Source: Leptasterias polaris (taxonomy: Eukaryota; Echinodermata; Asteroidea; Forcipulatida; Asteriidae). From it: a stretch of DNA of 64,000 nt. The notes beneath the pieces were generated by a model. That model had not been told where the DNA came from. It did no database searches and saw only the letters and a program-made list of their open reading frames with translations. Positions 3,608 through 62,789 of the stretch are shown one piece after another (positions within the stretch are counted from its first letter, which is position 1; each line of letters opens with the position of its first letter). Made by a program: the position numbers and the translations under genes. The stretch lies in the NCBI GenBank assembly GCA_037783415.1, contig JAZGTN010000015.1:6955001-7019000 (forward strand), written 5' to 3'.

Positions 3608-4499
3608 AATCAACTAAAATCGACTAACGGATTTGCCTGGATTTGTACACGGTCTGATGCGACAATGTAGACTTATGCATAGCAGTGGTTAGCAAAGGGT
3701 GTATTCTTCAACGCCATCGCTGCAGCCAATGGCCAGAGCAGCAGCCATAGTTACTTGATTCCCACACCACACCAAAATTCTCGTAAAAACAATACTTTTC
3801 TATCTCGTGGTAAGAAGAGATAAGTAATTTCATCACCCATCCATTGACTGTCACTGACGACGTGTATTTGGCATCACTGTATAAAAATTAAATCTAACGT
3901 TGTTTTAGAGATGCTTTTATTGTGATCCTTGTGAATGTTTTATAATCATTTTGATAAATTTAGCTGTAGAATAAATTAGAAATAATTAATATTAACAAGT
4001 ATGCCATCATCACCAAGTTTAACAAAAATTATAGCAAATAAAAATTGCATTATGACAATATGTTTGATTTGCTTATCCAATGCATTATAATAAAACTATT
4101 ACTGTTTGTATTTTAAAACAAAAGTAATTTTAAAATATACGAACGATTGTTTTAAAATGTGATATGGAAAAGACTATTCTGCAGTACTTAATGTTGTGAT
4201 TGAACCTTTACTAATATCAGCCCTTCTGAAAGCCCAATGTATTATACAAATTTAATATAAAACTTCCGTATCTATGAAAATATACTAACACTATTTTTTT
4301 ACCCAGAAAAGATTTTAACGTAGACCTCATCCACATGGCAATAAACAAATACAGTTGTGTTTTGGGTGCAAGTAGACAAAATGAGTGTTTTATATGATTT
4401 TCTGATCAGCGATCTTAGAGTTTAAGTTTGTGCTGACAAGAACGTAATTCTATAAGAACAAGGCACCGAATGACAATGCACACGCAGTGACAATTTAAA
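3608..4499. other. Intergenic, AT-rich, nothing recognised
   Basis: Downstream of the P450 stop I see only AT-rich sequence. There is no splice-bounded reading frame, no clear repeat pair, and no RNA gene. Confidence 0.5.
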
Positions 4500-4660
4500 T
4501 TCATGACTATTTAACTCTAGTATAGTATGTTTCACTGCAGCCACCCGAATTCATTGGTATTTCGGATCTGGTGGGAATCTGTGTAGACTGACACCGTATT
4601 GTAGTGTTGCAACCGGCAACAATACATCTTGATGGAATGTTCCATAACAAAAAGACAAAT
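4500..4660 (-). pseudogene. Relic of a THAP zinc-finger domain
   Basis: On the minus strand one frame reads RCIVAGCNTT (a C-x4-C start) and an adjacent frame reads GVSLHRFPPDP, then IRVAAVKHTILE with a stop in between. In that order these match the THAP signature: CxxxC, then a HRFP-type block, then a WxxAV-type block. THAP domains bind DNA and occur in both host proteins and transposases. The frameshift and stop show decay. The homology is read by eye and is moderate in strength. Confidence 0.4.
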
Positions 4661-4749
4661 ATCAAGAGATTTGGCCAAAGAAACGACGTGCATGAAGTTA
4701 CATAAGGTTGTGTGCAGCTGTACCACACCCACACATCGATCGCTACGCA

Positions 4750-5791
4750 CCAACAGACGATAATGTGCCTTTGTCTACGTCACAATTTGTCCCCTTTTAG
4801 GGGCGCGGATTTCACCCCTATTATGTTTCTTTTGCGATATATGACCTTTTTTACAAAATTCTAATTCACAGGACCTTGGGGGAAAATGCGCAATCCAACC
4901 ATAATGTTTTCCCCGTTTAATTTACACACTAAATTTAAAGAGTAATTTCAGTAAAGTTGTAAATTAATGAAGTTGTTGCACGATTTTTCCTTCTTCAATC
5001 TATGAAAAAAAGAAATTATACAGCTTGAATTCCAACATTATGACAACTATGATGACACATGACAATTTATGACTTGAAGTTTCAAGCTCATGAGAAATTT
5101 CCAGTGAGACTAATCTTCTAAGGGCATCACTGGCTTCGACCAACATGCAAATCAAGAAACGCCAAGACATTGTGACAACACCTTGAAAAGGTTTAAGTGG
5201 AGAACAGCATCAACAAGTTCAAAGAAAATCATCTAGCTGGCAGGGCGGGGTAGGGGGTGTTTGGAACCTGCAAAATAAAATGTTACATTGTTGCTTACCG
5301 TTTGCCGTTTTCTAACTGTTCTTTGAATTCTACGGACGACTGCCCCTACGTTTACAGCAAATCCCGTAACATACAATCACACGCACTATCCAAAAATCTT
5401 CAACTCAGTATAGCCACAGTTTCTCGATAGTAACTCAACAGACATGTCCATAAATGTATTTCGATTTTAGGCTGAAACATGGGAGTTCTCCACGGTCTGG
5501 ATCTGTCTAAATAGCGGGGAAATAAATCTTCTCTGTCTGGGTCAAAACACATCATCAAGGTGTCCTGGTCAACCACAGCTTCATGTTCAAAATTCTTTTA
5601 GAAAGCAACCATTTAAAACTCAACCTCGATGACCACTGATGCAGTTCCGTATCGGAGAGAACGTCGTTGTGACAATGTTTGACATTATGTTAGCCTGGCC
5701 TTCGGTCATGGACATTAATTTCACTCTGCATTGTGGTAAATTACTCTCTACATCACATCCACCCCCGTGATCAACATTGCAATGATAAGTA
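4750..5791. other. Intergenic, nothing recognised
   Basis: Short frames on both strands have no recognisable motifs and no flanking splice signals. Confidence 0.45.
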
Positions 5792-5964
5792 TAGACCTTA
5801 TGCATATGACGTCATTTGAGTAGGGCGCCCTCACCTAGAGGTCAAAAGGAAGATGCTCATTGGCCAGTCTTGTGCGCCGCGCGTACAAATCAGCGCGTTT
5901 CCAGTGTTTCATCATCAGTTTACCTCTAAGATGGCGGCTTGGTGACGTCAATGCATAAGGTCTA
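5792..5964. mobile_element. MITE with TA-flanked inverted repeats
   Basis: The left end reads TA|GACCTTATGCATATGACG and the right end CGTCAATGCATAAGGTC|TA. The inverted repeats are about 21 bp with one small difference, and the flanking TA fits a TA target duplication of the Tc1/mariner type. There is no coding capacity. Confidence 0.75.
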
Positions 5965-6660
5965 TTGCATATTATTAGAAGAGCTCCAGAGGAGTTTTGA
6001 ATGTTCTGCAGAGTCGGCAAGTGATGTGAGCAAGGTTATAAGTGTCCTGAGGTCAACCGAGCCGTTTGTCATTAGTTAAGGAATGACTCAACACCTCAAT
6101 GTTGCCAAATGCTTCAACAGTTATTGGCCTTCTTTCTGAATGTATTAGCTATGATTTAGCTGTTTGCTAAATACACCAGTAAAGTTCATCAAAAACGCTA
6201 CGTCCAAATCCGAAAGGTGCGGCTATGCTGCCCTCCAGAACGTGACGACTCTCCATCCCTTTCAGTACTTAGGTGCTAATTGTGTGTTGAACATGCCGAT
6301 TTGATCTAAAGAGAACATCAAATCATGAACGAAACCGGGACTTTTGCACAAACAATGAGATCTATTGCGACGTGGCATGACCTGCTGTAAATTCCAGACG
6401 TAATAATGTAGGCATCTATGTAAAGAATAGACGTTTGTTCATTATTTAACAGCAGTTATGCAAATTACGACAGCTATGGGGACTTGTGTTTCGCCAGATG
6501 TGTTTATTCTACTATAGAGCTAAATCAACGTCATTTATGTGGGGTATTTCGAGTATAGTAGTCCCCGCAAAAGCTGTCATTTTTCTCCCAGCCACTTTTT
6601 TTCGATATCGGTCCGGGGTGTTTTAATTAATTGATGTGCATAAAATAGAGCTGAAAGCTG
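5965..6660. other. Intergenic, nothing recognised
   Basis: No gene, repeat pair or RNA feature could be supported here. Confidence 0.4.
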
Positions 6661-6785
6661 TCAATTAAATATAATGCAAGGTCTTTGAAATTCAGGACAT
6701 GTGTTTTGAAGGGGGATGTGGTTTACTGACCAAATGATATAATATAGTAACCTACAGTGTACAACCAATGAATACCTTTACGGAA
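6661..6785 (+). repeat. Dispersed repeat, copy 1 (second copy at 7767-7885)
   Basis: GCAAGGTCTTTGAAATTC, GGACATG, GGGATGTGG, GACCAAATGATATAAT and ACAACCAAT occur in this order here and again, diverged, at 7767-7885. Confidence 0.65.
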
Positions 6786-7594
6786 TACCGAAACATGTGT
6801 AACAGGTTTGAGTACGGCTGGTGCGCACTCTTTACTGGAACACAATAAATTTACAAGGGACACGCTGTTTAGTGGTATTGTAAAAATAGTGAAAGGTTTT
6901 ATTCTAATCCCGACTACATATAAAAGGGAGAGGCGATTTAAACGCTGTATTATACATTATAAATGAGATGATGATAATATCTCAGAAAAAAAAAGAGAAA
7001 GAGAAACCTGGCGGGTCTCGACAATAATCAATAAAATAGCAGTTAAAATTTATACAATGGGAATATAAAACAAAAGTAAATGAATGGCCTATCTGTTGGT
7101 GGTGGACTTGGCGGTGCACCCAGCGAAAGTGAAGAATGACTATAGCTGAAACACTTGATGATAATTCGAAGACGATGATGATACTTGAAGAAAACAATAG
7201 AAGATGATGACACAAGGGGTCGTTGAAGTTGAAGATGGGGGACTTGATGAAGCGGTGCGAAAACAGTTCCTTGTCCTTGATCAGGGGACAGGATAACTGT
7301 TTTCGTTACAACCAGATAAAGATGACGAACAAAGAAGTGATGATAGTTGATGTTTCGTTGTCCTGCTGGCTCTCTTGTTTTGAATCCGCCTAGAGCAGGA
7401 CCGGGGATGAACACATACGATAAATATGGTGATAACAAGTTGGGCTGGCGCAATCCAACGCAGATATCCGACAGAGGCAAAGTGCATAAACTGAAGAAAC
7501 TTGGGAGGTTAAATCTTACAACTTTCCTCTGTCGGAGTCCAGTGGCCAAGTGACCAAACACTTTCTTGAGTAAAGTCACTGACCCCTGGACAAT

Positions 7595-7885
7595 CCTTCC
7601 TCAATGCGCCGTGATTGGTTGCATATCCTGCAACCAATCTCCCAATAATCACTTAACTCCAGGCAACCACCCACCCCTAGACTCGCCCTAGTCTGTGCTG
7701 GACATAGGTAAACTAGGGGTTTATAAAAAAAGGAGGGCCTACAATTTCATCCCATTACACATGTTTGGAACAAGGTCTTTGAAATTCGGGACATGTTTTG
7801 TTTGTTGGGGATGTTTTCGTGGGGGGGGGGGGGGTGCACGGACCAAGTGATATAATTTATTAACTTACACACAACCAATCAAATT
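7595..7885 (+). repeat. Second copies of two dispersed repeats, adjacent
   Basis: 7595-7760 matches 322-470, and 7767-7885 matches 6661-6785. The two blocks may be parts of one larger element, of which the earlier copies are fragments. A G-run lies near 7819-7833. Confidence 0.6.
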
Positions 7886-8082
7886 AAGGCACACCACATT
7901 ATGTTTGGAACATTGAAATCATTTCATTTATTTATCAAGGCGGTTAACTACTGGGATATTGTAGCGGACTACTTTATTTCAATATTATTCTGGAGAAGAG
8001 AATCCCTTTTTGATTATATAATTTCTGAACTTTCCGCTCATATCTTGAAACTTGTCGTGCGCTTTTTCTAATAAAAATAATA

Positions 8083-8432
8083 ATAATAATAATATGGATT
8101 TATATCGCGCTTTATCACACCCAAGGGCGTCTCAAAGCGCTCATTATTACCCCTGGTCACTGGGCCATTTATTTCATTCCTTAAACCATCTCAGCTCCCT
8201 GGGGAGTATACAGCCTGTGCTGCAATATATGCGCTACTAAGCTAAATCAATCACAAGAACCATCTCTGCCCTCACAGGTACCCATTTTACCCCTGGGTGG
8301 AGAGAAGCAATTATAGTTAAGTGTCTTGCTCAGGGACACAAGTGTCACGATCCCGGGACTCGAACCCACACTCTGCTGAACAGAAACACAAGAGCTTGAG
8401 TTCGGTGCTCTTAACCACTCGGCCACGACACT
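8083..8432 (-). mobile_element. tRNA-derived SINE with (ATT)n tail
   Basis: Read on the minus strand, the element starts at 8432 with GTGTCGTGGCCGAGTGG, a box A of tRNA-Leu/Ser type. It has box B GGGTTCGAGTCCC near 8350. A conserved-looking body follows with CTCCACCCAGGGGTAAAATG and a 3' block GAGACGCCCTTGGGTG..AAAGCGC. It ends in an ATT repeat at 8083-8097. A tRNA-like head, a LINE-like 3' end and an (ATT)n tail are the standard SINE layout. Confidence 0.85.
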
Positions 8433-9060
8433 CCACTTCTAAGCGCCTTGCAATATTAATACCCCATTATTTTTGGCACTACGCATTCCTGATACCACTT
8501 AACTCCTTAGGAATATGCAGCATCGGCAACCAATGGGTACACATGTTGCTACAATACCCCGGGCGAGAATGACTCAGCCACCAGAACTTATTGACTTTCG
8601 ATGTGCTAAACCGTTCGGCTATACGACAAAAGGGCGTTCGGATTTAATTTGTGTTTTGCCATAAAACAATGCCTAGTGTGGATAAGATGCTTGCATATCA
8701 TAAAGTAGTGTTAGTGCGCACGCGCAATGTTCAATTTAAATATTTCAAAGGAAAAGTCTACTCGAATACTTCACTAAAATACTGGGAAAAGGCATAAGAT
8801 TAACTTAATAAATGTCCAGAGCTGCAGTAGAATGTAGGGAAACTTTAATATTAGGCTAATAGCAGGTTATGGAATACTGGATAAGTTTATTGGGGTAGGC
8901 CTATTAAACAATTATGGTATAGGGAAACACTAATTGTTATGTTACTGTTGGGCCACTATACAAACTGTCATACTGTATTGGGACAATGTGATACTGTGTT
9001 ATAATACTTTGGGAACTGCGTATAAGCCATCAGGCTCCTGAGATATCTGAAAAATTAGGT

Positions 9061-9800
9061 ATACTGTGTTAGGATATTATGATGCTGTATTTGGCCAATG
9101 GGATTTGTATTTATTATGAGAAACATAGAGTTACTGAGATATTCTGTGTAAGGATATTATGGTGCTGTTGTATTTGGCCTTTTTGGGATCTGTTAGAATA
9201 TGGGAAACATAGAGTTACTGAGATATACTGTGTTAGGATAGTATGGTGCTTTATTTGGCCATTGGGATCTTTAGTAGAATATGGGAAACATAGAGTTACT
9301 GAGGTATACTGTGTTAGGATATTATGCTGCTGTATTTGGCCTTTGGGATCTGTTAGAATAAGGGAAACATAGAGTTACTGAGATATACTGTGTTAGGATA
9401 GTATGGTGCTTTATTTGGCCATTGGGATCTTTAGTAGAATATGGGAAACATAGAGTTACTGAGATATACTGTGTTAGGATATTATTGTGCTGTATTTGGC
9501 CTTTGGGATCTGTAGTAGAATATGGGAAACATGGAGTTACTGAGATATACTGTGTTAGGATATTATGGTGCTGTATTTGGCTTTTGGGATCTGTAGTAGA
9601 ATATGGGAAACATGGAGTTACTGAGATATACTGTGTTAGGATAGTATGGTGCCTTATTTGGCCAGTGGGATCTTTAGTAGAATACGGGAAACATAGAGTT
9701 ACTGAGGTATACTGTGTTAGGATATGGTGCTGTATTTGGCCATTGGGATCTGTTAGAATATGGGAAACAAGAGTTACTTAGATATACTGTATTAGGCTCC
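9061..9800. repeat. 82-bp minisatellite, about nine copies
   Basis: Units of about 80-83 bp each carry GGGAAACATAGAGTTACTG, ATACTGTGTTAGGATA and TATTTGGCC. Decayed copies appear to extend left to about 8880. Some units are open in one frame (27 codons per unit), which produces long but meaningless reading frames. Confidence 0.9.
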
Positions 9801-10034
9801 TTATCAGATACTTCTTGATACAAGGATATGATTCATTACGGGGAATTAGAACAGTGGCGTAACTACACTTGTTATGGGGGGGGGGGGGGGGGGTCATACG
9901 GGTGCATGACATAGTTTGGAGGGCTTTTTAGGGGGTGCAAGAATCATAAGCAGGAGGGGCCTGTTTGCCCCAATTTTTCAGATAATCTTTTGAGACATTA
10001 CACTACTTGGATACTATGTAAAATTGCAATTTAC

Positions 10035-10040
10035 TTTAAT
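10035..10040 (-). terminator. Candidate poly-A signal ATTAAA for the lectin gene
   Basis: On the minus strand ATTAAA lies about 40 bases past the stop codon at 10083-10081. It is a common variant of AATAAA. The call is positional only. Confidence 0.3.
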
Positions 10041-10080
10041 TGGTAATTTTTGTTGAATTAATTGTTTTAACAACAATAAT

Positions 10081-11416
10081 TTAGGGATGCAGTCCATGCG
10101 GGACCATGTATTTTTGCTTGTGTATGTCATTCCTCTTCTTTGTGACAGGCTTTTCCGTTGTCACGTGTTTCTTCGTTGTAACAGGCTTTTCCGTTGTCAC
10201 GTGTTTCTTCGCTGTAACAGGCTTTTCCGTTGTCACGTCCACCTTTTTCTTTAGGACACGTTTTAGGGCTGTTGGTTCCTCTTCGACTATCGGTTCTGGT
10301 GCCTTTTCGACTACTATCGGTTCTGGTTCACGACACACGTCCTCTGTGACGAGCTCCTTCACTGTTACTTCACACAACTGCAGATACGAAGGCGTGTCAG
10401 AGGGTATGTCGACACTAATGAAACGCGCCACCAACGGAGGATTGCATATGAACTCAATTGTGCCCCCAAACGGTGCTGCCATGTCGCTGCTTACTACATT
10501 ACCACATTGGGGATTGGCATGAATGTCGGTACTGGTACCCGCGCGAACAACAGCATTCGTCAAACGCTCACCTGGTGATATTGATGAACAAAACAGAAAT
10601 GGTCATTGTTGAAACATACAGTTATCCATTATCTCAATGAAGCAGTTGTGCTGAATACTCACTACAACAATCTCCGCGATTGAGAACGACAACTCTGCTG
10701 ATGCAGTGTTCATCTTCAAGGTCCACCAGCCACCATGGATCGGCCTGTTCCTCTAAAAAAATTAAAAAAAATTAAAAAAATCAAGAAATTATCAAAGAAT
10801 TAATGAAATCAGTTCACTTCACATTTTGATAATCGTCTTCATTATTATTATTTTAAAAATCTTATACAGGGAGTGCACAAGATTGGTTTGAACATGATCA
10901 CAGATTTGCACAAAACTTTACATGGTATAAAGATGTTCATGGAGAAAAACTTCCCTTAAATTATGTTTGCTAGAAATGCTGTAAATTTGAGAATTGAGTA
11001 TACAACTATTAGTTTTGATCTCAGAAGTCTAAAACTCGGTATTTAATTTTGAAAAAAAGGACAACAAATTTGTTTTTTCCAATGTTTTCTCGCGACTCCG
11101 AAGACCGACCGAGCCTAAACCTTTACTTTATTTTGGGTTGCATAGTTATGAAATGTGAATACTGGTCTTTGACAATCACTAATGTTGACCTCGTGCTTAA
11201 TTTGCGACGTCCCCCACAGTACAGAAGTCTCCAAATGTTACTGATAAAATCAGTCTGACTTTCTCTGTATTATAAAACAATACTTACTTGTGAATGCACA
11301 GAGAAAGTTAGGTGACTGTTGAGAATCACGGTTGCCGTCTGCAGCTTTATCTGCAGAGTATCTCTCGTCATAAGAGGAACTTTGCTCCGTTGGCTTACCA
11401 ATAATGGATAAATCCC
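10081..11416 (-). CDS. FTP domain 3 and repeated C-terminal tail (exons 9-11)
   Basis: Exon 9 (11416-11288) encodes DLSIIGKPTEQSSSY to FLCAFT. Exon 10 (10752-10663) encodes EQADPWWLVDLEDEHC to NRGDCC. Exon 11 starts ERLTNAVVRAG and completes the domain at LQLCEVTVKEL. This domain keeps PWW, both arginines of NRxDCCxxR and all the expected cysteines, so it looks the best preserved. The tail after it has a short PEPIV repeat and then three near-identical units of the type VTTEKPVT(A/T)KKH. It ends at TAA 10083-10081. The tail is strongly basic and threonine-rich, which suggests O-glycosylation or binding to anionic surfaces; that is inference. Confidence 0.85.
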
Positions 11417-14400
11417 CTGTACATTAATTAAAAGGAAAAAAATAAAAGAAAAGTATGAGCCATAAAACGTTAAAGGCGTGCTGTGCTACTTTCGTTGTAA
11501 AGGTGAGTTAAATTTAAGGATTGATGAAGTTTTCTTTTCCTTTCCAATACGTCTTTTTCCCTTTGCCTTTTCATGTTATTTTCTTTGCGTAATAATCGTC
11601 GCTCGTGCCAAGTAGTGACCTATCTTGCCCACAGCAAAAACAACAAGGAAATGTTTGGAGAAAGTTGCGATTGAAGTTGCACTTTTTTTTCAAACTGCTG
11701 TTTCGGAGTTGACTGTTTTTGTTTTGTTTTTTATGAAAAAAAATTAAGCTGACTACTTCGTATACAAATGGCATTCTGTTTTCATTCCTGCATTCCTGAA
11801 TTCCTGTGTTTTCATTACCGGTAATTAGTAATTAGTTTTAAACACATACGTCACTTCGTAAAAATGAACAAAAATCTCAATTTTTTACCGCAGAACGCTG
11901 TGTACAAATCAATGCATATAATAGAGACCTATTGAGATGCAAACGTCACACAAACGCGCAAGTGACGTATCGAGATAGAACACTTCGCCGAAATACAAAA
12001 TTGCACGTCTAGTGATACGTCGCTCATGCTAATTAGTGTCACTACAAAACCAATACAAATTAAGTACTGAAACTTGCTGAAAATTAAAAATATGGGTATA
12101 TTCTAACAACTTTTATAAAAACCGATTAGAAAACATGTGTGATTTTTGACAGATAAATTCATGATGAACGACGACATGTCATTTTAAATGTTTTCCTCCC
12201 ACATCAAAAATTGAAACTGTCTCCGTTGTCTTCTGTCCATGATTAGGTTCTTGGCTACTGATTAAGTTTGCTTTTCTGAGAATCCTTGGTTTCACAACGA
12301 GAATAAACAAACAAATAAATAAATAAATAAATCTTCTGAAAGTTTATCGTCGTTCGTTTGAGCTTACATCGAATGAACATAACTTTTTCGTTTATTCCTT
12401 ATCTTAATGTCAACAAATAACGTACACAATCACAGCCTAAAACGTCATTATACTAACTTTCCTCACTTCCGCACGGGTCGACGTTTAGTTCCTCGATCTC
12501 GACCTCACGTAGATGTAAATGTTCCTCTCTGCCTGGTATGTCAACACTGACGTAACGCGCCCTCAACGGTGGACCACAGTAGACATCCATTACGCCGCCA
12601 AGATGCCGGGCTTGACTAGCAGTTATCGGTGTTCCGCACGGAGCATTTGAATGTATGTTTGGACTCAGCCCTGCTCTTACAACTGCATCTGTTAACCTGT
12701 CGCCTATAAATATATGTAAGTCATGTCCCTGTTAAGTAGCTTTTTAAAACCACAACTAAACTAAAATTACAATGTCTACTTTCTAACAAGTCCCGATTCA
12801 GAGTTGATCCGGGGTTAGATTGGTACCCTGCCATTAAAGACAGACACTTTTCTTAAAAAACCCAATGGTGTCATTTTGTGGACATAAATTTAAAAGCAAT
12901 ATGAAACGTAAATCCAAGACTGATAATCGTACAAAGTGATATGGCAGGCAAAGTCAAAGGAACATCTGGCAGCCAACTTATAAAGGCGCGGTGTTAGGCG
13001 TTATTCACGAGCCTCAAAGTGTTAAGTCAGATGTTCGAGCTACGTGTGAGTCAGCATGACTTAAAAGTCTGAGTCTTAAACACGTTTACTGTCTAGGAAG
13101 CCAAGTCGTGTTGATCCGGAAAACGGATGACGCTGACCCGGTGTCATGGGGGTTTTGTCGTCCCCCTCCCGATGTGTGTGTTTGGCCCCATGATTTTATG
13201 CAACACCAACAAACTGGCCTTGCTGAACGACAATGGGCATGAGACACATTTTCTTGTCAATTCTAACCCAGGACTCTTCAGAAGGTGGAATAAACTCTTC
13301 TATCCGCCCAAAATATCGTGGGTTTTTATTTAACTCGTATATCAAGTAATGTTTATAGGAAAAGTCAATTGGGTCAACCATTATGAGCGTTAATATATAC
13401 TTACTGCAACAATCAGCACGGTTGTAAAGGGTGACTTTACTGATGCAGTGCTCTTTTGATAGAGTCACTTTCCACCAAGGATCAAAATCTTTAGCTGCGC
13501 CAAAAAAAATCAGAAAATAGTTATTGGTTATTCAATTCTGTGAGGTTTGTGCGATAGATGAGGGCTAGGGAAAAAACCAAAATGGATCCGCTATTTAGTC
13601 CAGTAACTAGACGACAATACTTTTTCTAAGTCATTGTGAAATAAGCAGTTAATAGCTTGGCAGGATTCGAACCTATAACCTTGTGATTGCAAGTCTTGCA
13701 GTCTAACCAATTGAACATGGTTACTTTATGGATAAGTACGATCAAAGATGGCAATTCGCAATCAACGGGAAGACATACTAATGGACAGGACGAAAAGGTA
13801 TGTTATTTCTTTTTAGGAGTTTTCTTCACACGTTTTAAATATTCTAAACTCATGAAGACATTTGACATCTTTGGATTCCTTGAATATCTGAGTTCATTTT
13901 TGCTGCGTAGGCTTACCATACTTGACACACAGGAACAGATGACTTGTGACGAAATACAACACAGAAATTCTTGAGAGCTGTACGTATCGTAGATAGTTTT
14001 AGTAGTTTCTCAATATTTTGAGATGTTATATATTTTCCCGTTGGTGATTAATCTGACCACTTGTTATTGACGACCATGGAGAACGTGCACATCAGACAAA
14101 GATGATCGCTGAGCAATTATTTAGACTGGTCCCCTGACTTCATCCGCAAAAATAAAGACAGGCACTGGTTTGACAGGCCCAATGATTTCATTGGATGCAA
14201 TGATTTCATTGGATAAACGTGCAGTGACGTAAAGCTTTCCACTTCTGTGTTATGATTGTCTGCTAAAAAGTGACGTAGTTTTTCAGCCACACCACCAGCA
14301 GCTGTTCGATTGTCTGCTGCATGCAGTGTGTGCATAATGTTTGTATGTGTAAACTACGAATCTCCGCCGTGTGAACGAATGCAAGGTCAAAGGTACATCC

Positions 14401-17400
14401 GACAAGATCCCGCCGAGCGCTCACGGCTGATATCTGGCATTATTCACGAGCCTCGAAGTGTGACGTCAGATGTTTTGATTTCAACAACATTTATTTCATG
14501 CTGGTACATAAATATCATACATGCAAATACAATTTAAGTAATCAGTACATACCTGTACATACAATTCCAAAATTATGAGAACAATAGTTAAATTTACCAA
14601 CATGTAGGAAAAGGGTGAAGCGTGACGCTTTTATGCCATTCCCTATGACAGACAAGGACTCGGACAAGACAAGGAGACAGTGAGACCAGACTAACTAATT
14701 AAAATGATTATACGATGTTGTGTAGAAATAATGATACATATAGAACTAAATTATACATTTTATTAATACATGTTAATACATGCTCAAAAGGTAATGTTTC
14801 AGGTTTTGGGAAAATGATTTAAGTGTGAGGGACTGTCTAATATCAAGGTTAAGATTATTCCAGAATAGAATGCATCTTGGTATGAGGCTGTTTTTGGATA
14901 AAGAAGTTCGATTGTATATAGTATAGAGATCACCCCTAGATGCACTTCTGGTTCCATGCGTATGTACTGATGAACATGATATAAAGAGATCATGTTCAGG
15001 CCAGTTAAGCAATATTCAGCTTCATGGTATCACGTGGTATTGAAATGATATTCTTTGTCCATTGCTGGCATACAGGGTGTGTACAGCGTAATCAGATCAT
15101 TATTGATCTCAACGCTCTCGGAATATTTATAAAGGTCAAATGTGTGAAATTTTTGGGGACGCCAGGCAGCTAAAGACTAAACCAGATTATTATTGTTGTT
15201 TGACAATGAATATTAACTTGGCATGTCTGCTGCCAACTTTTGTTCCAAAGTATCAATGTTTAACGGTTTCAATAAAATTAATGGTTACCTTTTCCATACC
15301 TAAGCTTTGGCTCTGGCTTAAATTTGGGACTAGTGTGCATTTTTGCACGGTGCATAAACATCAAAAGGAGCCCATTGTAGACAGGAAATAGAAATAGAAA
15401 TAGCACTATAATAAGAGAGGAAAAATGTCAGTGAATGTAGTGTTTGCCCAGGGAAGTCATTTTCACTTCACAGTACATCATTGGTGGAAGTCTAAAATCA
15501 AAATTCACGAACAGAAAAAGTTCCTTTTATTACCATGTTTTAGCATATCTTTTTACAATGTAGCCTAACTGCTTTGATTTTCAAGAACAAAGATTTTCTC
15601 AGTAAGAAAATCAAGTTTCCACGTGCATTCTGGTATGGCAAATGCCATCTTTGAAAACGACATCGCCAGGACAAATTCTAGGTGGCGCACTATATTTCAT
15701 ATCACCCATTTACTATGAGGTATCGTCTTGTTTTACCTGTGCAAGCAAACCCGTTGCGGTGTAATGTCGAAATGTAGCCATCCGCAGCCACCCTCGCGGG
15801 AAACATTTTGTCGAAAGTAGAGCTTTGTTCTTTCAGTTCTTGCAATATAGAGACTCTGCCTATAGAAATGAAATAATATTGTACTTTTAAATAAAGTTTA
15901 ATCACATTCATTCACAAAGTGACCCATTTAAAGCGTGTTTATTCTTTTTGCTATTTTTTTTTTCAAAACAGAGTCGATCATGTTTTGAAGAGAGAAATTG
16001 TTTTAGCCGAAGTTTAAAAGTGCTACTGCGTCAATTGCTGCACCTTGTTTGTTACTCACAATACTTAAAGGTTAAGAACGGGATGCGTGATGCTGATAAT
16101 GATGCGCTTTTTACCCGAGTCGGAGCTTTGGATTTCAGCATTTTTATGCATTCTCCTTAGGAGCGTGCAGCATCCCTTCAAAGGGTGTAAATAATTGTCA
16201 TCAACATCTTTGCCACTGAAGTTACCCACTTACTCCTGAGTGATGATACCATAAAGAAAGGGAGATTACTTTAACACTTGTTCTTAGATTAATAAATATT
16301 TTTCTGTAATATTCCACGTTAATACGGCTGTTACAGGTTGCATGGCTTTTGACTTGCACCCGAACAAAGATATTGATAAAATAGGGAGGCTGCCAAGATA
16401 GGTTCTAGATAACTCAGTTGATTTAGAGCGTCGAAGGTTCAAATTCTGCTCCTAGTAAATTATTTTTTTCAACCTCAAATTAGTTAAAAGTTACCCTGTT
16501 AACTTCCCTTGTGGTTTATTACTTTATTACGAAATAAAAAGTCCCATCCTCTTCAGGTGACCCCTCTGCCGCCGCTTCCAAAGCTGTATCGTAAGCTTGG
16601 ATGTGATCGCTGGCTACACGGAAGTTACAGGTTAAAATTCTTCTAACTGTCACCCTCGAACAAAGGTATTGACAGAATACTCAGGGTACCTCAAACATTG
16701 GGCTAGATAGCTCAGTTGGTAGAGCGCCGGAACGTTAATCTGTGGGTCGCAGGTTCAAATCTCACTGTCGTCAATTTGTCTTGGTTTAACCTAAAATCAG
16801 TTTAGTAATATTATGTGACATACTCTGTGGTCGATAGCATCGTTGGAGAGGGTACTCCTCAACCGTCACCTCCATCAGCTGAAGGTGTTGCTTATTGTAG
16901 TTATACGGTAGAACAACGCTGACCAATTTCGCCAACAACGGAGGGTCACAGTAAACATCAATTATGCCTCCTGCTTTCTGAGCCTGGTGGTCCGTCACTG
17001 GGGTCCCGCATCGTTCATTTCGGTTTGGGATATTGTTAAAACCAGCTCTAACAATTGCCACTTCCAAACGGTCACCTAAAGCAACAAAAATACGATATAA
17101 ATTATTTCCTATGGTCTACAATATTTACAATTTTGCTAATTTTGTCCAGTTTTCTTGAAAGTAAAGTGCTTGGGTGCAATGACGTCACGTGAGAAAATAA
17201 CCATTTGCATCACTCATCAACTAAACGTACATTCTTAGGGGCAGAGAAGCAATTAGTCCATATATTGGACCCTCTTTTATAATTATTTATGGAAATCACA
17301 AGGGCAATTAATTAGGCCTTACCTAATCAAGCAAGAAAAACAAGCTAAAATATATTATTTGCACGAGCTGGGAAGCAATATGGATACCAAAGAGGGTTAT

Positions 17401-24359: not shown

Positions 24360-25090
24360 ACCAAGCCCTAGTCTTGGTGCAAGACGTCCCTGTTCTGTAT
24401 TTCCACGATCCGCCCCATTACAAATTGCCGCCAATAGAGGGCGCTATCATTCCACGAACCCGCTATCACCCACGAACCGCTATCACAGGAACGTCTTGGT
24501 AATCTCGTCGAGTATCACGTGATACAATCGCTGTGACCTATATCTGCATATTCACATTGAGGTCACAACGGCAATACGCAAGCGCACGAACAAAAATTTT
24601 AAGCCGCATAACGACCAACCAGACTGGTCACGCTACTGTAGCAGACGAAATTGTATTGTCTACTATACTGACACACTGTGTGCTGTTCTGTGTAGCAAGG
24701 ACGGTCGGCCTCTTTCGTGATTTTTTGCAATTATGACGGCTAGCTGTGCTGGCGAATAATGGCCTCGCGATACTCATCACACCGTACGAAAAAGGGCGGA
24801 TGGTGTATAGTTTGTAACCGGCAGCTAGTAACTTGTAAGAGTTACACCACCTTTACTAACGAAAGCCAAGAAAAGGGCTTCATCAAAGATTTAAGTGAGA
24901 TTGTCGGCGAGGACCAGTGATCGAACGAGTCTGTTTCACAATATTGGTACTGTCTGCCTCAAATATAAATCAAAATTCACATTTCCCTTAAGTACACACT
25001 CAATGTTGGAGTATGATGGATTGATGAAGCTGTCAAGTAGAAATGCATTAATTAGGGGTTCGTATGGTGTTCCATGTGCCACTCCTTTCC

Positions 25091-25638
25091 GACGCCTTTT
25101 CAATTTTGTCCGTCGCCTTTTCAATTTTGTCCCTCGCCTTTTCAATTTGGTCCGTCGCCTTTTCAATTTGGTCCGTCGCCTTTTCAATTTGGTCCGTCGC
25201 CTTTTCAATTTGGTCCGTCGCCTTTTCAATTTTGTCAGTCGCCTTTTCAATTTTGTCCCTCGCCTTTTCAATTTTGTCCGTCGCCTTTTCAATTTTGTCC
25301 GTCGCCTTTTCAATTTTGTCCGTCGCCTTTTCAATTTTGTCAGTCGCCTTTTCAATTTTGTCAGTCGCCTTTTCAATTTTGTCCCTCGCCTTTTCAATTT
25401 TGTCCGTCGCCTTTTCAATTTGGTCCGTCGCCTTTTCAATTTGGTCAGTCGCCTTTCAATTTTGTCTGTCGCCTTTTCAATTTTGTCAGTCGCCTTTTCA
25501 ATTTTGTCTGTCGCCTTTTCAATTTTGTCTGTCGCCTTTTCAATTTGGTCAGTCGCCTTTTCAATTTTGTCCGTCGCCTTTTCAATTTTGTCCGTCGCCT
25601 TTTCAATTTTTTCCTTCGCCTTTTCAATTTTTCCATCG
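25091..25638. repeat. 21-bp minisatellite, about 26 copies
   Basis: The unit is GTCGCCTTTTCAATTTTGTCC with variants (TTTGG for TTTTG; CAG, CTG or CCG at the junction). Because 21 is a multiple of three, each frame encodes a heptad: RRLFNFV, SILSVAF or PFQFCPS on plus, and KLKRRRT on minus. One unit near 25455 lacks a T, which shifts all frames. I regard it as non-coding, while noting that long open frames exist on both strands. Confidence 0.9.
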
Positions 25639-26380
25639 TGGGTCGCGTGACTACCACGTGACTATCCATCAAAGTATTCGGCATTATCCTGATTTATTCC
25701 AGTTGATTCCAGTACATTAGCATTAAGTGCATTGGTTGATTATGATGGATTCAGTAGGCCTACAGTTGCAATTGATTGATTTTGGCGGATTTGTATGCAT
25801 GGTTTCTAGCAAAAACACCTAGGGAGTTGGGTCTAATTAGAGGAGAAACTTAAAAAAATATATATATACTGGTGGATATTTGAAGAAAAAAAAACCTGTC
25901 CTATCAGTGTGAATGTTTATTACAATGCTTTACATTAATTATCATATTTAGTTGAAATGTTCACTGATGAAATATTTATGCTTACAAATGTATAAATGTG
26001 GGCATTATACTTACAATAAAAAGGACCATGATTTAAAATTGTTCAGCTAAAATAACAAATATAATGTAACAGTAACAGAACAGTTTTCTACCATAAACTG
26101 TTAACTTTATGACCAAGTACTGGTTGTATAGTTTAATAATACCTGATACATGTACATGCATGGAGGAAGTGGTGCCAGTTTTAATCATATATTTGACACC
26201 ATAAATTTTCTTTATTTTTGTTTTCAAAGGAAAAGATGTAGATTCAGCATGATAGTCTTGGTTGTGTTGGATAATGTGAGACATCTACACTGTACATACT
26301 TCCTTGCCTTAAAAGCACAAATGTGAGGTTCATCCTCCAAAATGTAATAATGCGTACACAACAGTAACATTAAATCACCA

Positions 26381-26523
26381 GGGGCTGATTTTACAAAGAG
26401 TTCAGATTGATCTTAACTGTGTATTATTAATCTTAATTGATGCAATGTGTGATGTCACAATACAAATCACTATGGCAAATAACTTCAGATAAATCTTAGT
26501 AAGTCCTTTGTGAAATCGACCCC
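26381..26523. mobile_element. MITE with GGGGCTGATTTTACAAAG ends
   Basis: The left end GGGGCTGATTTTACAAAG and the right end CTTTGTGAAATCGACCCC are imperfect inverted repeats with matching TCAGAT..ATCTTA blocks inside. It is nested within the Mutator-like element. Confidence 0.75.
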
Positions 26524-26532
26524 ATCAGGCCT

Positions 26533-26587
26533 TATAGTAATAACATTATTTGAATACATACTGTATTCAAATAATGTTATTACTATA
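26533..26587. repeat. Perfect 26-bp palindrome with 3-base loop
   Basis: The arms 26533-26558 and 26562-26587 are exact reverse complements (TATAGTAATAACATT...). The loop is TAC. It lies ten bases from the neighbouring MITE. Confidence 0.9.
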
Positions 26588-27052
26588 CTATAACTTCTAT
26601 TACATTAACTGTCAACTTTTACGGCACGCTCCGCCATTACGCACAAACGACAGCAAAATACTAGTTTAAATAGTTCTATGGGTTACTACGGTTACTACGT
26701 ACACACGCGGGTGTCGGTCGACAAGTTCCATTCATATTCCCCACACACGATTCCATGTGCAGCCACAGTACAATAATAGAGATCAGTGGTTCACAAACGC
26801 GGCAGTTCAGGTACTAGACTGATCACGTGATTTCTTTATTGCAAAGAATTATGCAAATTTCTACGTCACAGCGGAATGTGCCTGGAATTTTCAAGGCAGT
26901 TTGACGAGATTACCAAGACGTTCCTGTGATAGCGGTTCGTGGGTGATAGCGGGTTCGTGGAATGATAGCGCCCTCTATTGGCGGCAATTTGTAATGGGGC
27001 GGATCGTGGAAATACAGAACAGGGACGTCTTGCACCAAGACTAACCAAGCCC

Positions 27053-28905: not shown

Positions 28906-29320
28906 TCAAAAATGATCAGCTCAATGAAGACTTATGAGAAAATGTAAACAAAAATTACAAATTACAGTCAACACTTAGCAAGACAGGTTGTCTGGCAACT
29001 TGTAAAAAAAGACGTGTAATTGTTGTTTTGTGTTTGGCCTGGATGAAAACACATTACACATGAAATGTTTTCTCACTGTGAAACCCCAATACTCCAACTC
29101 CTCTTTCTCTCCCCCCCCCCACCCCAACAACTCCTGTACTTCACCATGCAATAAGCACAAACTAGGGCTGCTCATTAATTTTACATAGCAAACAAAATTA
29201 ATATTTAAAACAATAATAACAAATACTTATACATGTACTCAATAAAACCCTACATTTAAATTACCAGATGTGGTTGCGGTCAAATAAAAGTTACATAAAA
29301 GTCTCATAAGATAATAAAGG

Positions 29321-30261
29321 ATTTTGGGTTGAACAAAGAAAAATTGACTAGAGCGGGATTTGAACCAACGACCTCCGGTTTAACGTGCCGGCGCTCTACC
29401 AACTGAGCTATCTAGCCCTATGTTGGCGGTCTCCCTATGTTGGCGGTCTCCCTATGTTGGCGGTCTCCCTATGTTGTCAATATCTTTGTTCGGGGGGTGC
29501 CAGTCAGAAGCCATTCAACCGCAAACTGCTGTGTAGCCAGGGATCACACCCAAGTATACGATACAACCTGGGAAGCGGCAGCTTAAGGGGATGCGACTTT
29601 TTATATCAGATATCAAATAATAAACCACAAGGGAAACTGACTGGGTACATTTTTAAATGATTTTGGGTTGAACAAAGAAAAATTGACTAGAGCGGGATTT
29701 GAACCAACGACCTCCGGTTTAACGTGCCGGCGCTCTACCAACTGAGCTATCTAGCCCTATGTTGGCGGTCTCCCTATGTTGTCAATATCTTTGTTCGGTG
29801 GTTGCCAGTCAGAAGCCATTCAACCACAAACTGCCGTGTAGCCAGGGATCACACCCAAGTATACGATACAACCTGGGAAGCGGCAGCCTGGGGATCACCT
29901 TAAGGGGATGCGACTTTTTATATCAGATATCAAATAATAAACCACAAGGGAAACTGACTGGGTACATTTTAAAATGATTTTGGGTTGAACAAAAATCCCA
30001 GGTTGTATCGTATACTTGGGTGTGATCCCTGGCTACACGGCAGTTTGCGGTTGAATGGCTTCTGACTGGCACCCCCCCCGAACAAAGATATTGACAACAT
30101 AGGGAGACCGCCAACATTGGGCTAGATAGCTCAGTTGGTAGAGCGCCGGCACGTAAACCGGAGGTCGTTGGTTCAAATCCCGCTCTAGTCAATTTTTCTT
30201 TGTTCAACCCAAAATCATTTAAAAATGTACCCAGTCAGTTTCCCTTGTGGTTTATTATTTG
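29321..30261. mobile_element. Composite insertion of three SINE copies, one inverted, with a single 15-bp target duplication
   Basis: Two minus-oriented tRNA-derived SINE copies (about 29321-29656 and 29657-29985) are followed by a plus-oriented copy (about 29995-30261). Each copy has box A TAGCTCAGTTGGTAGAG and box B GGTTCAAATCCCGC on its own strand. The whole block is flanked by ATAAGATAATAAAGG at 29306-29320 and 30262-30276, so it entered as one unit. The family is the same as at 16330-16800 and 52205-52493. Confidence 0.85.
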
Positions 30262-30499
30262 ATAAGATAATAAAGGTGTACAGAAATATGTACAATGTGA
30301 TCAACAAGGTAACAATCCAAAATGGCTTGCTGAATTAATCATAGTGACCATCAGAAATATTCCTCTGCATGTACAATAAGGTATTTAAACAAACCATCTC
30401 AAATGTATCTCCTCAATACATGTATTAGGATGACAAAAGAGACTTTTTTTCATTTAATTTATTCTGGTTGTGAAGCCAAGGACTCTCAGGAAAGCGAAC

Positions 30500-32429: not shown

Positions 32430-33285
32430 GATATTAAAATTTTGGTCGTAATAAATCCCAGCTTGAATTCATGCAAGCTTAGTTTCAGCTTGACCAAGAA
32501 TTTATTTATCTGCATAAAGATCTTGTAAAACTGCTCATTGAAGGTGAAGTCATGTTACACTTAATGACGTCATCGTGATGTGAACTAAATTTGTGGATGT
32601 AACACATCCCAACTTGAATATGTGCAAAGTTTCACCTTGATCACCAAAGTTGTTCTTTACATGTAGATCTCGTAAAAAACTACCTTTATGGTAATGTAAC
32701 GTGACAAATGACGTCGTGAAGACGTCAGTCCATATTTTAACCGTAAATGACTTTCCAAGCCTTTTGCAAAACAAAATTTGATTGCAGCTTGTTTTGTTAT
32801 AATAATATGCAACAAGTGGTAACAAATGTTTTAAAAAAGTAACAAATAACATGATGATGTCATCATTACGTGACTTCAGGATTTAGATGTCAATGTCATT
32901 GTCTAACAATACATCAAGTCGGTCGGACTTAGGGTTTTGTAGATACACGGCTTCAAAAAGTGCACCTTTAAGGCTTTATCACGTGACACATGATGACGTC
33001 ATCAATCTACAACTTCACACATTTTTGTCTGCATGAAGGTCATTAAGTATACGAATTATGAAACGATTATCATAATTTTGCCACAGATATCTAGTTAAAG
33101 TGTATTTTGAACTGTTTCTAACCTGCCGCTAGAGCGCTCTTGGTATTTATGACGTCACTGGTCCTATTATTTAAAACCGGACCCTTGCTGGACTATAAAA
33201 TCGTTGAAAACAACTCCCCAAAAATTCTCATTTTTACATTACAAGGCACTTCCGGTTTCTACCGAAAGTAGAGGTCAAGTAATGT
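32430..33285 (-). repeat. Stem-loop-family repeat body, inverted copy of 56080-56570
   Basis: The minus strand reproduces the order seen at 56080-56570: the ACTTCCGGT block, GGCACTTCC/AAGTGCCTTGTAAT, GAGCGC(C)CTCTAGCGGCAGGT, CATTATGACCTTCATGCAGAC-type words, TGATGACGTCATC and CACGTG. It consists of diverged internal units with TGACGTCAT. The head that this family should have is not seen, and the foldback element begins where it would lie. Confidence 0.6.
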
Positions 33286-33543
33286 CACGCACAAATTTAG
33301 TCCATGAGCCAGGTGCCGAAATTTCACATATTGGTACCACTTCGAGGGACTAATTCCAATATCACTTTTCTTGTTGCAAATAATCCATAACTTACCATAA
33401 ATTATGATAGCCTTTCGAAAAAATTAGATTTCTACCAGTTTTCGAAAGATTTCACCGTAAAATCTGAAACCTCTCAGCCTCTTCCGTTATTGATAAGTCA
33501 ACGGCTGTTTACGTATTAACAACATTATAAGCCCATGCGTTTG

Positions 33544-33937
33544 TACGGAAGCCGGATAGTGCCAGGAAATAAGAAGTGAATAATTTTTTTCATGAGCGCG
33601 AGAATATTTTTTTGTACCATTTATCCGGCGGCCGCCACTTAATTATCCGGCGGCCGCCACTTAATTATCCGGCGGCCACCACTTATTATCCGGCGGCCAC
33701 CACTTAATTATCCGGCGGCCGCCACTTAATTATCCGGCGGCCGCCACTTAATTATCCGGCGGCCGCCACTTAATTATCCGGCGGCCGCCACTTAATTATC
33801 CGGCGGCCGCTACTTAATTATCCGGCGGCCGCCACTTATTTATCCGGCGGCCGCCAGATAAATGGTTCAAAAAAATATTCTCGCGCTCATAACAAATTAT
33901 TTCACTTCTTATTTTCTGGCACTATCCGGCTTCCGTA
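33544..33937. mobile_element. MITE with 6-bp target duplication, nested in the foldback arm
   Basis: The ends TACGGAAGCCGGATAGTGCC and its exact complement form the tips of inverted repeats of about 80 bp that also contain GAGCGCGAGAATATTTTTTTG. CGTTTG flanks both sides (33538-33543 and 33938-33943). The opposite foldback arm near 35330 keeps the uninterrupted site (CTGTTTGCACGG on the complementary strand), which confirms the borders. Confidence 0.85.
33620..33858. repeat. 22-bp GC-rich minisatellite, 11 copies
   Basis: The unit is TTATCCGGCGGCCGCCACTTAA. Eleven CCGGCGG words are spaced about 22 bp apart, and most copies contain GCGGCCGC. It forms the core of the nested MITE and is far more GC-rich than its surroundings. 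Confidence 0.9.
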
Positions 33938-35560
33938 CGTTTGCATGGAGAGAGAATAATTTGAGTGCATACTCAAACAGCCGTTGTTTTTTTTCCACTT
34001 TGCTGCCTCTCAATAAAAACAGACCGTCAGCCATTTTGTTTTCGCTTGACGACAAAGTCGACAGTTTACAGTTGATTTTAGACCTTTATGAGTAAACAAT
34101 CAATGTGTGTTTTTATAAAGAATAGAGGTAAGCTATTTTTTATATGGCTGTTGATTTAAAGGAGGGGGAAAGTGCACATTGAGTAAAAAACACACATTAA
34201 GCGTGCCGGGAATGTGATGTCCTTCCGCCTGCCCATTATATGCTGACCGAGGACAATCGGTGACGATCCAGATCAATGCTGTTCACATTTATAATTGTGG
34301 TACTAAAATACCTGAATTTTAGAGATGTAATACACAGCCAATTTGTAAATTTAATTAATTATGAATGACAGAAAAAGGCCGACTGTATAACATGTTTGTT
34401 TTTTCAATTGTTGCATAACCCTTGGCAGTGCTAGTGAAATTTTAAAGGGGTTAGCAAAAATTGCTGCCCTGCTTATCTGCTCGTCACTTTCTTTTTATCG
34501 TTTCCCAGGCTTTAGGATTCGATTCCCTCTGAAATGAAACATATCGGTGTTTTCAGCCTTCACTATTTTCCAAATTTATTTAAAAATCATCTACTGGTGC
34601 CGGGCAGTGGCTCCCCTGACAAGAAATTAGTGAGGGGTTGCATGGGGGAACTTGTTTTTCTCAGTGTTCGTTTTCTCTTTTAATACTAGGCTTCTTCCAC
34701 TCTACTTTTTTTCTTTTGATTTTGAGTGGTAAAAGAAAAAAGTTCTAGAGCAATTGTTATTCTTTTCTTTTATATGTAGGTTGAATTACAACGTTAAAAT
34801 GCCAAGGGCAGTAAAAAATAGTAAGGGGCACCCTCTGTCATGTCATCCCCACCCAACCCTTATCCCCGATACGGTTAAGTAGGCCTGCAAAGATTTGGTG
34901 GAAAAATTCTCCCTTAATCCACTTTTCTTTGTCAGAAGTATTTAAAGCACTTCTAGGGAGACATAACAAAAAACAGAGAACGTATCTGAGCACTCTCCAA
35001 AGTGTATTGTTGATTCAGTTGGATAAGACCGGCACGACACAGGTGCTACATACTCAACATGAGCTACTAATTGTAATAGAATAAAACCTGCACCACAACC
35101 TTCTCTTAACTTTACAAACAACATTTATAATCAAAAGGCAATGTTATATAACGTATAACAAAGGCATTTTTCAACAGAATGACACTAAAACCAATTAATT
35201 CCTCTTGATGACTGTTGATGAAAAGTACATCGGCATTATTGACAAAGAGAAACATTGTTGACATGCAGCATGCTTGCCATGTGACAAATACAACGGCTGT
35301 TTGAGTATGCACAACCAAATATTCACTCTCCGTGCAAACAGATGGGCTTAAAAAATTGTTACTATCTAAACGGCCGTTGACTTATCAAAAACGGAAGAGG
35401 CCGAGGGGTTTCAGATTTTACGGTGAAAATCTTTCGAAAACTGGTAGAAATCTAATTTTTTGGAAAGGCTATCATAGTGATATTAGAATTAGTCCCTTGA
35501 GTTGGTACCGGCAAGTGGGGCTGGCTCATGGACTATTATTGAGAAAATAAGAAATACATT

Positions 35561-38650: not shown

Positions 38651-39069
38651 CCACACTTCACTTAACAAAATTAGGACAAATCCAGCCAATGCAATTCCAC
38701 CTTCAATTGAGTTGGAGCATCGCATAAACAGAATATGATGACAGATTAAACTCAGAAATATTCTCTACATTGATCAATGCCACACGTTTTTTACCCGCCA
38801 ACTATTTGTTTTGTTATCATATCAATGTGAATACAAATAAATTGTATGTGCCATGTCGGACACATAAATTAAATCCTTAAAAATTCGATGTGAAAAAGCA
38901 TTTCTTGTGTTAAAGCCAATAATATTGTAAAGTTTCTGAACCTGCTATTTATATAGTTGGTATACTTTTAACAAGTGACCCAATGGCCGATGTGACCCTC
39001 CTGAAGCAACCACGAGACAAGCGAGACCAGCGAGACCAGCATTTCTCTCACCGTAATATTTACTCTTTT
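38651..39069. other. Intergenic, nothing recognised
   Basis: AT-rich, with no supported feature apart from a short GCGAGACCA direct repeat near 39019. Confidence 0.4.
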
Positions 39070-39628
39070 AGCAAAAAGATATGGGACTAATATCCACTCA
39101 TTTTAAGCAGGCTTCTATAAAAGACAAGATGCTCTTCGTGAACAGCGAAAGAGCTTCAGAGACATCCAATGATGACTCCTCAGCCTCGGTATCAATTTCT
39201 ACCCCATCCATGTCATCAGTTTCGTCAGCTTCAAGCGAGATTGTGAAAACGTTATCGTCAACGAATGATTCATCTTTGATTCGTAATATTTATTATCAAC
39301 AGTTTGCCCGTTGACAGAGTCATCCTGAAATGTTGACGTGTACGACAAGGCCGCTGAAGAGGATGACGATTGAGATGTAGAAGATAGTGAGGGCTGATAT
39401 GACGAAAAAGACGTATCCAAAGATGAATCATTCGTTGACGATAACGTTTTCACAATCTCGCTTGAAGCTGACGAAACTGATGACATGGATGGGGTAGAAA
39501 TTGATACCGAGGCTGAGGAGTCATCATTGGATGTCCCTGAAGCTTTTTCGCTGTTCACGAAGAGCATCTTGTCTTTTATAGAAGCCTGCTTAAAATGAGA
39601 GTGGATATTAGTCCCATATCTTTTTGCT
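39070..39628. repeat. Inverted duplication of a coding-like exon, 211-bp arms
   Basis: The left arm 39070-39279 and the right arm 39418-39628 are reverse complements with about three differences. Each arm follows a plausible splice acceptor (TTACTCTTTTAG on plus; GACTCTTTCAG on minus). The spacer is about 138 bp. Confidence 0.85.
39199..39628 (-). CDS. Putative serine-rich exon, unidentified
   Basis: On the minus strand, after the CTTTCAG acceptor, the frame reads KRYGTNIHSHFKQASIKDKM, then a Ser-rich stretch (SSASVSISTPSMSSVSSASS) and QPSLSSTSQSSSSSAALS. It continues across the spacer to ESKMN and into the opposite arm. The left arm holds the same exon on the plus strand, but a 2-base deletion (CACTCAT versus CACTCTCAT) changes the upstream frame. 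I do not recognise the protein. Ser/Thr-rich composition alone gives no function. It may be an exon of an unseen gene or part of a mobile element. Confidence 0.35.
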
Positions 39629-40628
39629 GAAAGAGTCGGTTTTCAAAGCAACATTTGAAATAACGGGACACTAAACTATGTACACCTTGATTTGGTGCCT
39701 TAACTGCATGGTAAAAGTTACATTCTATCGATTATTGTTAACATGAAAGTACGGTTTTCTTGTTGCGTTGAGCTAACAGAAAAAGGGTAAATGGAAGGTT
39801 TGTTACATATAGGAAGTTTAGAGGTTATTTAATTTGGTATTGTCCAATGCTTCCTTATTGATTAGTAAGTGCACTTCGTGTTTAATAAGTTAATAATAGC
39901 AAGCGTAATTTTTTTCAAGATAAAAATGCATCAAATAACGTTTTGCTTCACCAGATTTATTCGCATCTTGCTTTCTCCATCTGTGTCTTGGCTGGGAAAG
40001 GACTTCCTTCAGCGGGCAGAGTCAAGTGTCTGACGAGGGTGAGGAAGAGAAACACCCCATAGCCACTAGTCGCCATGCTGGTCATTATGCAGAGAGACAC
40101 GGGCGAGATTTCTAGCCTTGCTTGGTCGAATTCTAACAGCATCTACTGTGGATGCCCGTTGAATACACAGCATCTGTCTTGCTTGAGTGCTTCAAGGGAA
40201 TGTTGGGTACAAAATGTAGTGCAGACGAACACGTCACAACGATTACTACTTAAGTATTTATTTGTGGGGAAATTAACAAAAATAAATATGTGGTAAAGTA
40301 GAAAGAAACTTGAGTAAATCTTTTGTTTTCTTATGCTATAAAGTAGTCAAAGAAAATAATGGATTACGTTTTTAAAGTACAAATTATTTATAAAATTTTA
40401 TATTATTTGACTAAAACTAACTGGATATCACATTAGTAGCTAATGGGTTAAATGTTCTGTAGATTTACGCCTTTTCGTTTTTAAATGTCAAATTTATGGT
40501 AAAATTTTTAACATATTGCTTTAGTATCTACGTAATTGATTCAGTTAAATAAAACAAGTCTTGGGAAATAATATTCTACACGTGTTTTACTCTCTTAATG
40601 TATAGTCCTCGAGAATTGATTTCCCTTC
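39629..40628. other. Intergenic between the inverted duplication and the LDLR-A gene
   Basis: A short minus frame at 40082-39957 begins MTSMATSGYGVFLFLTLV and looks like a signal peptide, but it runs to a stop (EKARCE) with no donor matching a downstream exon, so it is not called as a gene. Nothing else was recognised. Confidence 0.35.
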
Positions 40629-57846: not shown

Positions 57847-58440
57847 ATGTCTTCGGAGCCAAACCTTTTTGACTTACTTAGTATCCCTTCGGACAGCGAG
57901 ACTTTAATGTCGCAGCTTGACCCAGGATCGGGCTCCGTTGCTGGCAGCAATCTGTCGGCAACTCGTGGTTCTTCGGTAAAACCAAAGCCAAAAAGAACCA
58001 CAAAAACAACCAATGTTGTTCACCGAGAAGAAATCTCGGATATGCAAGATAAGATGGCAACAATCGCCGAGGCCATGCAGACACTACAATCTACAGTGAT
58101 GTTTGCCATTGATGCTAGACCAACGAAACGTCAGAAAACTACCGAGAGTACAGTCTCGTCAAGTGACGAGTCCATCAACACGGCCACGGCAATCGACCAG
58201 CTTCTTCAGCCAGAGGGGGAGAAGAAAACCGAAGCAAGTGCCTCGGCAGGAGTCCTCGACGCCATTGAACAGCTCTACTCCAATGACGACTCTGGTGAGA
58301 AAGTCGACGATCAGCTAGCAACGGTAATGAGCAAAGTGCTCCGTCACAAGCCATCAGACGACAAAATGTCAGAAAAGCTAAATAGCCTCAAAAGACCATC
58401 TAACATTCAGGAACTCGAATGTACTCGAGTTAACCCTGCG
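57847..58440 (+). pseudogene. DIRS-like gag, N-terminal part
   Basis: The frame starts MSSEPNLFDLLSIPSDSETL and runs through a Thr/Ser/Lys-rich region to KLNSLKRPSNIQELECTRVN, the conserved RP..C..L...RVNP block of DIRS gag proteins. The frame is lost just after it. Confidence 0.65.
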
Positions 58441-62640: not shown

Positions 62641-62651
62641 TCAGTGTTGTA

Positions 62652-62772: not shown

Positions 62773-62789
62773 CCCGTGCAAGGGTTTAA

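Follow-up and report, generated by a model that had tools for sequence, protein, structure and literature searches.

The window analysed here, a stretch of 64,000 nucleotides of Leptasterias polaris DNA, holds between positions 24369 and 27043 a segment (W) that a first-pass annotation had taken for an apparently recent, Mutator-like insertion. The locus thus raises the question of what kind of element W is, how recently it moved and what moved it. Its two terminal inverted repeats (arms), the left at 24369-24509 on the plus strand with the first bases TAGTCTTGG and the right at 26903-27043 on the minus strand, are complementary at 141/141 positions, as had been claimed. The 9-bp target-site duplication described on either side was also borne out: ACCAAGCCC is found exactly at 24360-24368 and 27044-27052, with no further occurrence across the window. 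The chance of two random 9-mers of the window agreeing is 1.2e-5, and exact inverted matches within 3 kb reached no more than 14-20 bp in 10 shuffled windows, so that neither the duplication nor the arms of W can be attributed to chance. In the real window minus W, the longest such match was 118 bp, in a foldback at 39 kb. No second element resembling W was found in the rest of the window, and the flanks of W gave no Pfam match above cut-off. A diverged continuation of the arms inward was considered and discarded, since 72/2000 shuffles were equally good, and 231/500 over a longer stretch. A relative of W on viral contigs was likewise rejected; a 21-mer and a 22-mer gave no match there, and an 18-mer gave 4 loci, which at best match W over 27-31 bp.

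The 629.7-Mb genome was searched with a query of 152 nt taken at the left end, and 40 of 504 candidates, W included, were scored, at 99-100% identity. Exact matches to the 21-nt terminus numbered 414 genome-wide (201 + 213), as against 0 for the reversed control, and the family therefore comprises roughly 200 copies. We read 21 copies, namely W and 20 of the 39 other scored matches. All 20 of the latter have both ends, and 19 of them (20/21 counting W) are bounded by perfect 9-bp duplications that are all mutually different; the exception, L027, has no duplication at its ends. Homology extending past the arms, or an absence of duplications at other sites, had been named as findings that would speak against the reading of W as such an element; neither was encountered in the 20 fetched copies, homology beyond the arms being judged from the differing duplications. 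W is supported as a complete, young, non-autonomous insertion of 2675 bp and as a member of a multi-copy family. The first 100 of the 414 termini, paired by eye, gave 16 single ends and 42 facing pairs, of which 4 span 141-228 bp, 35 span 1.7-3.7 kb, and one each 5.1, 13.9 and 14.7 kb. The 9-bp duplications were present in 3/3 long copies and in 3/4 short ones (L051-L054, L053 being without). Three of these mini-copies are 84-94% self-complementary (ungapped), and L051 is not.

The insertion sites are biased in composition. The 20 duplications have a mean GC content of 65%, whereas sequence drawn at random from the 20 fetched loci averages 40%, none of 2000 draws reaching 65%, and the flanks 10-59 bp from the insertion average 50% GC.

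Family copies differ little from one another. We counted 0-2 mismatches among four copies of 2007 bp, 2-3 among three of 2226 bp, 1-12 among four of about 3.4 kb, which are mutually alignable, and 1-15 among five of about 1.7-2.1 kb. The fetched copy nearest to W is L013 (99.7% across 700 bp on the left, 99.6% across 460 bp on the right), and the other 19 are 96.9-99.1% identical to W over the left 700 bp. Since near-identical copies carry different duplications, they represent separate insertions, and the family is very young and recently amplified. The suggestion that W is recent thus holds on the strength of its near-identical relatives at separate sites, but not on that of its identical arms: 0 differences over 141 sites bound arm divergence only to about 2.1%, and a private base common to both arms in W and L013 makes arm identity a poor clock, as the arms may have been homogenised.

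This private base is T132, found in both arms of W and L013, with G in both arms of the other 18 readable copies. The left arm is 141 bp in 21/21 copies. The right arm ranges from 112 to 141 bp in 20/21, within the length of more than 100 bp expected of the long repeats of Mutator-like elements (MULEs): it is 123 bp in 15 copies, 112 in L017, 139 in L013 and 141 in W, L029 and L031, and that of L024 is interrupted by a nested insertion and unreadable. One arm was probably copied onto the other in some copies, the shared T132 being the observation that this fits best. In a tree built on the left subterminal region, W, L013 and L031 group together (0.99), with the short type closer to W and L029 apart. 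Given the position of L029, arm length is explained by the loss of a repeat unit no less well than by copying, and a possible origin of the 123-bp right arms is such a loss in the other copies.

The arm itself is composite. Its bases 3-17 form a terminal palindrome, GTCTTG-GTG-CAAGAC (24371-24385, plus strand), expected by chance with a probability of 0.007 within the initial 20 nt of shuffled arms. Further in, CGCTATCA occurs three times (24442-24486, plus strand), the copies in the inner half of the arm being spaced 19 and 17, so that the arm carries about 2.5 copies of an 18-bp tandem unit, as expected of a foldback-type element.

Between the arms lie a CpG-rich left subterminal region common to the family (24510-24926, plus strand), a 21-bp minisatellite with 26 unit starts (25088-25638), a degenerate MITE-like inverted pair with 18-bp arms at 83% (26381-26523), a perfect hairpin with 26-bp arms (26533-26587) and a CpG-rich right subterminal region (26611-26902, plus strand). 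The minisatellite, the MITE and the hairpin had been listed as contents of W and are all three there, but they are not its private cargo. The minisatellite is present in 21/21 copies, with 7-59 units by a one-mismatch scan that gives 25 for W. The MITE-like pair and the hairpin, whose palindrome exists in several variants, occur in 12/21 copies, exactly those that lack the second, inverted minisatellite array of the other 9 (the 1.8-2.1-kb type), and so mark one of two family types. A frame in L028 looks, by eye, like a LINE 3' end. The left subterminal region of W contains a short open frame (24759-24917, plus strand), whose translation starts MASRYSS and includes a CxxC motif, and for which there was no Pfam match at cut-off and no relative in one length-limited search. 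The minisatellite was rejected as coding sequence: 5/6 unit frames are open, yet the units differ at all three codon positions (8, 6 and 11 differences, counted by hand), and one unit of 20 bp counts against coding as well.

The interior could also be read as that of a Pack-TIR element, in which the CpG-poor middle would be a captured block of older host DNA between CpG-rich ends. When the array and the 41 bp after it are omitted, the observed/expected CpG ratios of left end, middle and right end are 1.22, 0.14 and 1.21, and 0/5716 fixed-layout controls are as extreme. With only the array omitted and the boundaries optimised in the controls too, 3/571 reach the value of W. The boundaries were picked post hoc, however, and the contrast is roughly halved when the array is kept. 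Moreover, 11 of the 20 fetched copies, as judged by their MITE, share this middle, so that any capture would be ancestral; a capture private to W is weakened accordingly, and we regard host-DNA capture as an unlikely account.

No transposase was found among the Pfam families listed for the six frames of W (stops read as X; one frame represented by the best 25 of 65 matches), where the matches fall on the array, in keeping with the earlier view that W encodes none. An autonomous partner with a MULE transposase, which was to be looked for as a check of that annotation, was found neither at the 12 PF10551 loci read nor in the long copies read. The PF10551 profile had 18 matches genome-wide, and none of these 12, read with 1.5 kb on each side, bears W-type ends. 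Five copies of a MULE-domain frame (L037-L041, L045; 645-1065 aa), 99.85-99.97% identical, constitute a separate very young family; one of its loci, read out to 9.4 kb, lacks W-type ends and is not bounded by other inverted ends either.

Of the copies read, the three longest (14.7, 13.9 and 7.1 kb) owe their length to nested insertions. Pfam was consulted with four frames of the 13.9-kb copy (C17, L046 + L047), with a frame of the 7.1-kb copy (L024) that recurs in the 14.7-kb copy (C9, L048 + L049), and with six frames of the 5.1-kb copy (C5). C17 was rejected as autonomous: its YqaJ and DDE_Tnp_4 genes are enclosed by AGACGATGTGACC inverted ends that are flanked by AT, left and right, and they therefore belong to a nested ISL2EU-like element, at about 5855-12416 of C17, whose YqaJ protein ends in a PHD-like C-terminus. 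C17 also holds nested LINE-like frames, the LINE and the element boundaries having been assigned by eye. L024 and C9 were likewise set aside, as their nested insertions are PF20700 elements bearing direct repeats of 480 bp, one in L024 versus three in tandem in C9, in agreement with the description of KolobokP in the accessible text of PMC9587614. These KolobokP-like insertions (L024:1641-6239; 1713-14581 of the element in C9) lie at nearly the same right-arm site, as a monomer in L024 and as a trimer in C9, whose units are 99.9% identical. C5 was also rejected; by eye one of its frames, among others, is LINE-like, and the six frames run for its 2.6-kb extra block gave no Pfam match. An autonomous copy may have escaped among the remaining 314 termini, as the first 100 of the 414 were examined.

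We consider it likely that W belongs to a very young family, of about 200 copies, of non-autonomous cut-and-paste DNA transposons that are moved by a transposase encoded elsewhere, most likely of the Mutator/foldback type. The ends, the duplications, the copy number, the near-identical copies, the target bias and the common interior, from which this reading starts, were directly observed. A transposase from elsewhere in the genome, most likely of the Mutator/foldback type, would recognise the composite ends, presumably by binding to the subterminal repeats. It would make cuts staggered by 9 bases in a GC-rich target, the element would insert, and filling of the gaps would leave the 9-bp duplication. 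In some copies the opposite arm has probably been overwritten by a copy of the first, and slippage would add or remove minisatellite units. With near-identical copies, the family is a good place to seek a working transposase. So many very young insertions would also let target preference, change in the minisatellite (7-59 units) and arm-to-arm copying be measured.

The superfamily is probably Mutator/foldback. No transposase is tied to these ends, and membership is judged from the length of the duplication and the anatomy of the arms; the label Mutator-like therefore stands as far as the long arms and the 9-bp duplications of 20/21 copies, within the 8-10 bp expected of MULEs, fit it, but lacks a transposase to match. 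hAT and P elements make 8-bp duplications and are rejected, the duplication being exactly 9 bp in those 20 copies. It is also too long for ISL2EU or another PHIS element, as ISL2EU duplicates AT and most others 3 bp (excerpts of PMC4482050). Evidence for MULEs in chordates is limited according to the portion of PMC6446971 available.

The closest parallels come from other animals, as described in the accessible parts of the papers cited. Muta1, an active mosquito MULE, and related Aedes MULEs (PMC5225508) have, like W, arms of about 145 bp with a terminal palindrome followed by subterminal tandem repeats, and like its family they show 8-9 bp duplications and many non-autonomous derivatives with varied interiors. 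Muta1 differs in having 9 copies of a 12-bp repeat, versus about 2.5 of an 18-bp repeat in W, and an autonomous copy, whereas none was found for the family of W among the copies read. Tm1 Mutator/foldback elements of root-knot nematodes (PMC3169594) share composite repeat-bearing arms, 9-bp duplications and MITE-like members; unlike W, they have asymmetric 7-bp terminal motifs outside the arms, and one copy has a transposase of the Phantom type. The Drosophila elements FB4 and Tetris (PMC8277862, PMC4079207) are, like W, non-autonomous, with 8-10 bp duplications and a mobilising transposase not found in these accounts, but their arms reach about 700 bp and up to 1,735 bp, respectively, against 141 bp. 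Moreover, the 21-bp array of W sits interior to its arms, and an inverted array pair occurs in the short type only.

Rehavkus, a Mutator-related group with a minisatellite before its 3' arm and a PHD-finger transposase (section 8 of PMC6446971, in the part available), offers a narrower assignment. Its minisatellite inside one arm and Mutator-like anatomy recall W, and the 9-bp duplication is compatible; the array recurs in every copy read, but in W it lies about 0.7 kb inside the left arm and not, as expected of Rehavkus, next to the repeat. Moreover, no transposase, and hence no PHD finger, was seen in the copies of the family that were read, the PHD-like match of the 13.9-kb copy lying inside its nested ISL2EU-like element, and that section knows Rehavkus only from insects and annelids. 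We therefore find this assignment rather improbable. Still less probable is a new superfamily that makes 9-bp duplications with a novel transposase. The lack of a PF10551 match near W-type ends in the 12 loci read and the CxxC frame without relatives in its one length-limited search would suit it, but the anatomy matches known Mutator/foldback elements, and 314 termini remain beyond the first 100. A Merlin element is practically excluded: its 8-9 bp duplications permit it, but Merlin arms open with a conserved GG (PMC8101967, as excerpted), which is missing here, all 21 copies opening TAG.

The arms of W, taken here as those of a Mutator/foldback-type element, also carry candidate CTCF-like cores. 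The scan used a CTCF consensus with Y as its final letter. The core in each arm, CCAATAGAGGGCGCT (left, 24431-24445, plus strand; right, 26967-26981, minus strand), is a sequence match one mismatch off that consensus, CCASYAGRKGGCRS (from the accessible text of PMC6746451). Such cores number 3 in the window versus 0.22 expected, 2 of them being those of W, and the left arm of 21/21 copies has one. It is conceivable, albeit a long shot argued from sequence, that the family is still mobile and that every insertion would add an inverted, convergent pair of such cores, 0.1-4 kb apart, at GC-rich and perhaps genic sites, with arm-to-arm copying keeping both motifs alike. If so, about 200 very young insertions would amount to a natural experiment on whether a mobile element rewires chromatin boundaries. 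The remaining core of the window (56231-56245) lies inside a dispersed repeat at 56106-56459 that is related to 32914-33263.

Other repeats were noticed elsewhere in the window. An element at 33294-35537, its ends set by eye, has imperfect arms opening TAGTCC and a 22-bp minisatellite of its own near the left arm; it showed no duplication and no Pfam match. The foldback-like inverted repeat at 39062-39636 has arms of about 225 bp (97%), separated by about 126 bp, and a duplication was looked for there and not found. At 29315-30264, direct and inverted repeats cluster together with sequences resembling tRNA-Asn and may be SINEs of tRNA origin. At 57781-62789 are the remains of a retroelement labelled DIRS-like by eye, with an RVT_1 match in one frame and relatives for another; a further search gave 6 matches. 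Among the at least 120 retroelement relatives listed are one from Diadema setosum, a sea urchin (48%), and one from Euphydryas editha, a butterfly (46%).
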